Shown here: positions 51,607-52,953 of the stretch, piece by piece
Layout: every line of letters begins with the position of its first letter
How positions within the stretch are numbered: position 1 is the first letter of the stretch
Assembly: GCF_009882935.1 (NCBI RefSeq)
Contig: NZ_WTVA01000003.1
Coordinates: 160,715 to 224,714, forward strand
Direction of reading: 5' to 3'
DNA length: 64,000 bases
Source of the DNA: Sneathiella chungangensis
GTDB taxonomy: Bacteria > Pseudomonadota > Alphaproteobacteria > Sneathiellales > Sneathiellaceae
Position numbers and translations under genes: made by a program
The notes under the pieces: model-generated
Databases searched by the model: none
What the model saw: only the letters and a program-made list of their open reading frames with translations
Told to the model about the DNA's origin: nothing

Positions 51607-52806
51607 TCAGTCGTCATGCCCGCCCCGGAGGGTGACCCATTTCAGGTGAATACCGGCAACGAGAGAGATCAGCGTGATCACCAAAAGCAGGGTGAGGAAG
51701 GGGATGGCCCCGGATGTCTCGCTCACCAGGGTGCCGGTGAGCGCGGTCAGCGCGCCGCCGCTGCCGACCGCAAGCGCGCCGATAAGCCCGACGGCGGACC
51801 CGGCAAGGTCCGGCCGGATCGACATGGCGCCGGCATTGGCGTTCGGCACGGTCAGGCCGTTTCCGGCGCCGATCAAGATCAGCGGCCCGAATAACGTCAG
51901 GGCGTTGCCCATATCGGCGAGGAAGAAGAGCAGGGAACTAACCGCACCCGTGACCGCGATGAAGCGACCGGCGAGGATCAGGCTGGTCAGTCGGACGCGA
52001 TGGGCGAGGCGGCTGGAGAGGAAGGTGCTGCAGGTAAAACCAATGGTGATTGTCCCCATATAGACCCCGAGCAGCGCCGGCGACAGGCCGAGCATCACCA
52101 CCGCAATCAGCGGGACCCCGGCAATAAAGACGTAAAAGCCGCTGTTGGAAAAGGCCATGCAAATGGCGTAATCCCAATAGCGGAGGGATTTCAGCAGGTA
52201 GGGATAGTTTTTGAGCTGTTGGCGGAAATTCTCGCTGCGGGTCAGGTTGGTTTCCCCCAGGTCAAACCAGCAGAGCAACAGCGCCAGCGTCCCGAACAGG
52301 GTATAGGTGACGAAGTTCGCGCGCCAGCCGAACAGCTCATCCAGCACGCCGCCCAGCATCGGGCCGAGCAGCGGCGCAATCGACATGGCCATGGTGAGGA
52401 GACTGATGCGCCGGGCCGCTTCCTTATGCTGGAAGGTGTCGCGGATGACCGCCATTGCAATGGCCCATCCGGCAATGATCGTTCCTTGCAGAACCCGGAA
52501 CAAAAGGAAGACCCAGACGTTCGTCGCGAGCGTACAGACAAAGGACGCCATCACGAAGATGACCAGCGCGATGAGCATGACGGGCCGCCGCCCGTACCGG
52601 TCCGATAACGGACCGATGATCAGCATCAGCACCGCCGTAATCCCGAGATAGCCCGCAACGGCGAGGGTGAGCAGCGCATAGTCGGCCTCGAAATCCCGCG
52701 CCATGTTGGCGAGGGACGGGACGAACATGTTGAGTGACAGGGTCGACAAGGCCGTAAAGACAACCAGTGTGATCATGCGAGGCGGGGAGGTGGCGGCGGC
52801 GGGCAT
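51607..52806 (-). CDS. MFS multidrug exporter, Bcr/CflA type
   Basis: A 399-residue carrier with twelve helices. Family marks are STLSLNMFVPSLANMARDF in the first helix, GPLSDRYGRRPVML in the 2-3 loop and MAMSIAPLLGPMLGG in helix 5, as in Bcr/CflA drug exporters. The ATG at 52806 follows GAGACAGATA; longer starts lie inside a terminator hairpin and are rejected. The leader contains an Arg-rich short ORF and an intrinsic terminator, so expression is probably controlled by attenuation. Drug range unknown. Confidence 0.92.
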   Translation of the reverse strand: MPAAATSPPRMITLVVFTALSTLSLNMFVPSLANMARDFEADYALLTLAVAGYLGITAVLMLIIGPLSDRYGRRPVMLIALVIFVMASFVCTLATNVWVFLLFRVLQGTIIAGWAIAMAVIRDTFQHKEAARRISLLTMAMSIAPLLGPMLGGVLDELFGWRANFVTYTLFGTLALLLCWFDLGETNLTRSENFRQQLKNYPYLLKSLRYWDYAICMAFSNSGFYVFIAGVPLIAVVMLGLSPALLGVYMGTITIGFTCSTFLSSRLAHRVRLTSLILAGRFIAVTGAVSSLLFFLADMGNALTLFGPLILIGAGNGLTVPNANAGAMSIRPDLAGSAVGLIGALAVGSGGALTALTGTLVSETSGAIPFLTLLLVITLISLVAGIHLKWVTLRGGHDD

Positions 52807-52832: not shown

Positions 52833-52862
52833 AAAAAAGCCCCCGCATGTTCATTGGGGGGC
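52833..52862 (-). terminator. Intrinsic terminator in the leader of the drug exporter (attenuator)
   Basis: On the minus strand GCCCCC (from 52862) pairs with GGGGGC (to 52839) around an 11-base loop, followed by six T (52838-52833). It lies between the Arg-rich leader ORF and the exporter ATG 27 bases beyond, so read-through is needed to express the exporter. Confidence 0.82.
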
Positions 52863-52887
52863 GCAGGGGAGGTCGATCCGGTCCTGA

Positions 52888-52953
52888 TTACCGGCTCATG
52901 CGCCGTCGTCGCCTCACCCCTGGCACCGGCCTCCGTCGATCTTGTTGTTCCAT
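52888..52953 (-). CDS. Arg-rich leader peptide (21 residues)
   Basis: A 21-codon ORF in the leader of the Bcr/CflA exporter. It encodes MEQQD, then three Arg, PVPGV, five Arg in a row and a final MSR, so 9 of 21 residues are Arg. It ends 26 bases before the terminator stem. Arg-x-Arg runs are known to arrest ribosomes carrying macrolides or ketolides, and stalling is the usual way drug-inducible leaders work. The ribosome site is weak, and the peptide is called from its position, composition and the terminator, not by similarity. Confidence 0.6.
   Translation of the reverse strand: MEQQDRRRPVPGVRRRRRMSR

Follow-up and report, generated by a model that had tools for sequence, protein, structure and literature searches.

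Within the 64-kb stretch of DNA analysed here (the window), a promoter on the minus strand is followed by a 21-codon open reading frame (ORF), an intrinsic terminator and a gene for a Bcr/CflA-family MFS transporter. This element is probably a ribosome-mediated transcription attenuator that senses the charging of valine or, more broadly, branched-chain tRNAs and is used on an MFS transporter. Judged by sequence, the window leader is a version, changed within its lineage, of an RNA switch that occurs throughout the Alphaproteobacteria and most likely reads valine supply; a close relative of this switch is predicted to control branched-chain amino acid synthesis. The exporter therefore seems to answer to amino-acid starvation, not to arginine or to an antibiotic stall.

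The promoter (52989-52961, minus strand as for all features below) is predicted from the sequence and consists of a -35 hexamer TTGACG at 52989-52984, a 17-nt spacer and a -10 hexamer TAGCCT at 52966-52961. The latter ends 7 nt upstream of the leader ATG, and the same layout, with the ATG 6-7 nt past the -10 hexamer, is found in the Sneathiella leaders L003-L007 and L012. Because of this short distance the leader mRNA of the window is probably leaderless, and the shared arrangement suggests a leaderless attenuator transcript for these Sneathiella copies together. Caulobacter has many leaderless mRNAs (PMC4117421). Unlike in Sneathiella, the leader ORF of other genera is preceded by a Shine-Dalgarno sequence.

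The leader ORF (52953-52888, ATG to TAA) encodes the peptide MEQQDRRRPVPGVRRRRRMSR, in which codons -12 to -9, counted from the stop, read V-P-G-V at the place of the Val/Ile/Leu tract of the family. Its 3' end carries the 5' arm of the putative antiterminator, GGCGCA (52899-52904), which lies over Arg -5, Arg -4 and Met -3 and is conserved in alignments A1-A3. An inner hairpin, CCGGU-AAUCAGG-ACCGG (52878-52894), extends into the stop codon and matches the inner helix of the relatives, which spans the stop codon there as well. The intrinsic terminator (52833-52862) is formed by a stem-loop at 52862-52839, with a folding energy of -12.8 kcal/mol, and a U run at 52838-52833. The putative controlled gene, P0001 (51607-52806), encodes a Bcr/CflA-family MFS transporter of 399 aa, which scores 229 bits against TIGR00710 (cut-off 200.9) and also matches PF07690; its ATG at 52806 lies 26 nt past the U run. 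The succession of a 21-codon ORF, a terminator and an exporter that an earlier note on this DNA had pointed out is real, with all parts on the minus strand. However, a simple consensus scanner run on the window reported neither the leader promoter nor the terminator, and the free fold of the whole window leader was no better than that of shuffled sequences (z = -0.36). Single-sequence structure is thus uninformative, and the case rests on comparison with relatives.

Orthologous exporters share the ORF-arm-terminator layout at near-fixed spacing, with a stop-to-arm distance of 24-31 nt that is usually 26 nt, as it is in the window. Leader-bearing exporters occur in Sneathiella, Kiloniellaceae, Stappiaceae, Roseobacteraceae and further families. 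In these leaders the final codons coincide with a 5' arm, GGYGCAUGG, whose pairing partner, CCAUGCGCC, overlaps the base of the terminator; the arm also occurs as GCGCAUGG or GGUGCAUGG, and its mate, CCAUGCGC with an optional final C, lies directly before the terminator and overlaps it. An alignment of 84 leaders shows pairing in 97.8% of cells for the outer helix and in 100% for the terminator helix; since the arms are nearly invariant, covariation is weak. The earlier note had instead paired CGCAUG with CAUGCG in the terminator. Such a pairing, with the loop and 3' arm of the terminator, can form in the window, but it is not the conserved one; the conserved mate of the 5' arm is UGCGCC at 52865-52860, just 5' of the terminator stem base and overlapping it.

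The leader ORF is kept in exporter leaders, either with a Shine-Dalgarno sequence or with an apparently leaderless start, the exception being a Shimia leader (L040:2842-2959) that runs into an early stop after MTFNFVVVVSKR, apparently through a 1-base insertion, while its RNA arms are intact. In a phylogenetic tree of the exporters, 38 of the 50 members of one clade (support 100/100) carry the leader; all leader-bearing exporters in the tree fall within this clade, and the Bcr-like proteins of the outgroup have no leader. Mapping presence and absence onto the tree requires about nine label changes and hence repeated loss (or gain) of the leader; the related species represented by L008 and L009 have none. 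No conserved gene neighbourhood around the exporter was seen by eye in nine loci, and since the neighbouring genes differ between loci, leader and exporter are maintained as one unit. A difference in an acidic residue of TM1 was considered as a sign of substrate change in the exporter and was dropped, since Asn occupies this position in other Bcr-like proteins of the class as well. Among exporter relatives without the family leader, a Val-rich leader was convincing only in L036 (2830-2960), a gammaproteobacterial MAG, in which the peptide IAVVVVSVVVRVRLSP and a distinct terminator of its own precede an orthologous exporter. This leader recalls ivbL of E. coli.

The N-terminal part of the leader peptide is not conserved. 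What is conserved in the peptide is a Val-rich tract, codons -12 to -8 counted from the stop, and in relatives this Val/Ile/Leu tract ends 7-8 codons upstream of the stop codon (e.g. MEQIIHIRTPVFVVGSARMDR and MTFNFAVVVSRRCMVR). The signal is specific to the reading frame: in a set of 39 exporter leaders, an average of 3.2 of the five tract codons are Val, Ile or Leu in frame, compared to 0.6 and 0.3 in the other frames. Among 27 distinct exporter leader peptides, 89% have one of the three amino acids at -9 and 74% at -8, mostly Val, percentages that are descriptive only, the rows being related sequences. The Val codons of these peptides vary synonymously. Nearer to the stop it is the RNA arm that constrains the codons (third base of -5, -4 and -3). 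Regulatory codons at a fixed distance from the antiterminator are thus a feature of the relatives, whereas the window tract is branched-chain in two of five positions; few Val, Ile or Leu codons are also found in the exporter leaders L014, L037 and L082. The earlier note had further proposed to align leaders across the Alphaproteobacteria. Such an alignment recovers the shared ORF-arm-terminator layout and a Val/Ile/Leu tract but not the Arg runs, which, among the leaders read, occur in the window species only, L081 having a similar Arg tail.

The same element stands before acetolactate synthase genes. A covariance model, R1, was built from exporter leaders only (20 sequences, the window included) and gave 16 matches at E <= 2e-11 among 385 genomes of the class, the next match being at 2e-5. 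By their downstream protein, assigned from ortholog search or tree for L069 and L071 and by a longest-ORF rule for the others, these 16 matches precede P0001-type exporters and, in four cases, acetolactate synthases. The four belong to the Rhodobacteraceae, as assigned from sequence context, and in this family the model matches 204 of 248 genomes. Nearly all Rhodobacteraceae copies examined (L070, L072-L074, L127-L155 and L164-L181) lie before acetolactate synthase (ilvB/ilvI), for example with the leader peptide MHRLVVIVGKWRMGR. Across 44 such ilv leaders, each of the codons -12 to -8 is Val, Ile or Leu in 95-100% of the rows, and the three amino acids interchange within the tract, as would be predicted for an attenuator that responds to branched-chain amino acids. 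Both versions occur together in one genome, G648, before an exporter (L139) and before an ilv gene (L164).

These features are consistent with the following mechanism. When charged tRNAs are scarce, the ribosome would wait at the Val-rich (Val/Ile/Leu) tract, whose end lies 7-8 codons upstream of the stop; if the ribosomal P site holds codon -9 or -10, the arm GGYGCAUGG would stay free to pair with the mate described above. This pairing would take the basal terminator pairs beside the U run, and transcription would continue into the exporter gene. With sufficient charged tRNA, the ribosome would instead proceed to the stop codon and cover the arm, and the terminator would form. In constrained folding the ribosome was assumed to cover 15 nt downstream of the first base of its P-site codon. 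At equilibrium the mean number of basal terminator pairs was 1.98-1.99 with the ribosome at the stop and 1.5-1.6 with it stalled at -10, while without a ribosome it was 0.77 for ilv leaders and 1.56 for exporter leaders. The competing folds shift in the expected direction, but the switch is only partial at equilibrium. The antiterminator and terminator hairpins have only two or three base pairs in common, at the foot of the terminator, and could form at the same time; the earlier hairpin may be kinetically favoured, and termination could be sensitive to the loss of pairs beside the U run. The idea of a leader ORF with competing folds holds up in its layout, its frame-specific conservation and its pairing at the terminator base, though not in its choice of Arg codons as the sensor. 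Several points count against a branched-chain attenuator: the partial nature of the switch, the weak covariation, the exporter leaders with few Val, Ile or Leu codons, the window among them, and the want of a proven reason why a putative drug exporter should obey such a signal.

How the window copy itself would behave is a separate matter. Erosion has left V-P-G-V in place of its tract, with five Arg codons behind, so that the copy has probably been weakened or altered and its specificity may have changed. It is possible, if rather doubtful, that it has decayed altogether, senses nothing and acts as a constitutive partial terminator, a state that would not conflict with the preferred explanation of the family. 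The broken Val tract would fit such decay, as would an antiterminator arm cut to 6 bp (GGCGCA-UGCGCC), a free fold at the level of chance and the missing leader in the related species L008 and L009. However, ORF, promoter, the 26-nt stop-to-arm spacing, both arms and the terminator are all retained, and R1 gives the window leader 59.7 bits, although as one of the 20 sequences in the model it contributes to its own score.

For the family as a whole, the choice lies between the sensing of codons and arrest by a drug. In the latter case a ribosome inhibitor, such as a macrolide, would stall the ribosome at the hydrophobic tract and free the antiterminator. The arrest motifs IFVI in ErmCL and IAVV in ErmAL1 do resemble tracts such as VFVV, VIVV and NFVVV of the exporter leaders, which are short and in some cases hold only two Val, preceded by Phe, Thr or Ala. 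In addition, Bcr/CflA proteins are classed as drug exporters, and drug-induced leader attenuators of exporters are known (PMC4335068; PMC4191407). Against this stand the unconserved N-terminal part of the peptide, the long Val run in L036 and the window copy, from which a hydrophobic motif of the IFVI/IAVV type, present in relatives, is missing. The same RNA also precedes acetolactate synthase with a longer tract in which Val, Ile and Leu are freely interchanged, which fits codon sensing. Because the architecture is common to the ilv leaders, codon sensing is the likelier of the two, and drug arrest at the tract is considered improbable. Arrest at Arg-x-Arg motifs, which the earlier note put forward and which is the ErmDL type of drug-dependent arrest, is not supported by the orthologous leaders: those of the closest orthologs (exporters 92-93% identical), MEQIIHIRTPVFVVGSARMDR and MEWKSHIRPRVFVVKELRMGR, have VFVV and no Arg run, including that of the 93%-identical L003. 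That the window attenuator has been re-set to arginine, with RRR (-16 to -14) and RRRRR (-8 to -4) sensing charged Arg-tRNA as the same note had also suggested, is very unlikely despite nine Arg in 21 codons, several of them rare (AGG 4.3% and CGA 7.4% of Arg codons, computed from the 64-kb window), as the runs are known from one species only, relatives, too, often have Arg at -5, -4 and -1, and the run at -8 to -4 coincides with or adjoins the antiterminator arm, which a ribosome stalled there would hide.

A branched-chain attenuator thus remains the preferred reading, and it has several relatives in the literature. Attenuators with upstream ORFs (uORFs) rich in branched-chain codons have been described before ilvB, namely the Corynebacterium ilvB-II uORF, the ilvB-OMG and the Leptospira ilvB motifs (PMC10272879). 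Like the present element, these combine a branched-chain-rich leader ORF with an antiterminator and an intrinsic terminator, and they share with it a place before acetolactate synthase; they differ in lineage and sequence, and the window element precedes an MFS transporter. Within the Alphaproteobacteria, the uORFC-8-2 motif precedes cysS in Rhodobacterales and ribosome-mediated attenuation has been proposed for it (PMC8632094). It likewise has a short uORF, with two tandem Cys regulatory codons and prominent stems, but unlike the window element it reads Cys and precedes a cysteinyl-tRNA synthetase (PMC8632094). Leader-peptide-dependent transcription attenuation of a drug exporter is known for bmrCD in Bacillus subtilis (PMC4191407) and mef/mel in Streptococcus (PMC4335068); these Gram-positive attenuators are described there as antibiotic-induced, whereas the tract found here is common to an amino-acid biosynthesis gene. 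A link between an amino-acid attenuator peptide and multidrug export in the Alphaproteobacteria is provided by peTrpL of Sinorhizobium meliloti, although this Trp leader peptide reportedly acts in trans on a multiresistance operon and is not a cis attenuator of an exporter (PMC7298713). No Rfam 15 family scored above its gathering cut-off for the window leader or its relatives, and the open-licence literature searched yielded no description of a Bcr/CflA gene under a branched-chain attenuator; a paper on premature terminators mentions neither ilv nor Rhodobacter (PMC2965389).

There is perhaps an even chance that the charging of branched-chain tRNAs, chiefly that of valine, controls an entire Bcr/CflA subfamily of the Alphaproteobacteria by way of an attenuator held in common with acetolactate synthase. 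If so, the transporters may expel natural inhibitors of branched-chain synthesis or of tRNA charging, recognised through the starvation that results; alternatively, they may be misnamed and move branched-chain metabolites. A transporter family named only for its similarity to drug pumps would then be linked to branched-chain amino acid supply in many Alphaproteobacteria, which offers a clue to its substrate. The attenuator family, which has no Rfam model, would serve two unlike genes and is present before acetolactate synthase in most genomes of one large family. The acetolactate synthase genes of Sneathiella were ruled out as users of the family leader. Their upstream regions (L097-L118), in which no obvious branched-chain leader peptide was seen, instead bear a putative terminator of their own, made up of a GC hairpin and a T run, together with a conserved stretch that resembles a promoter.
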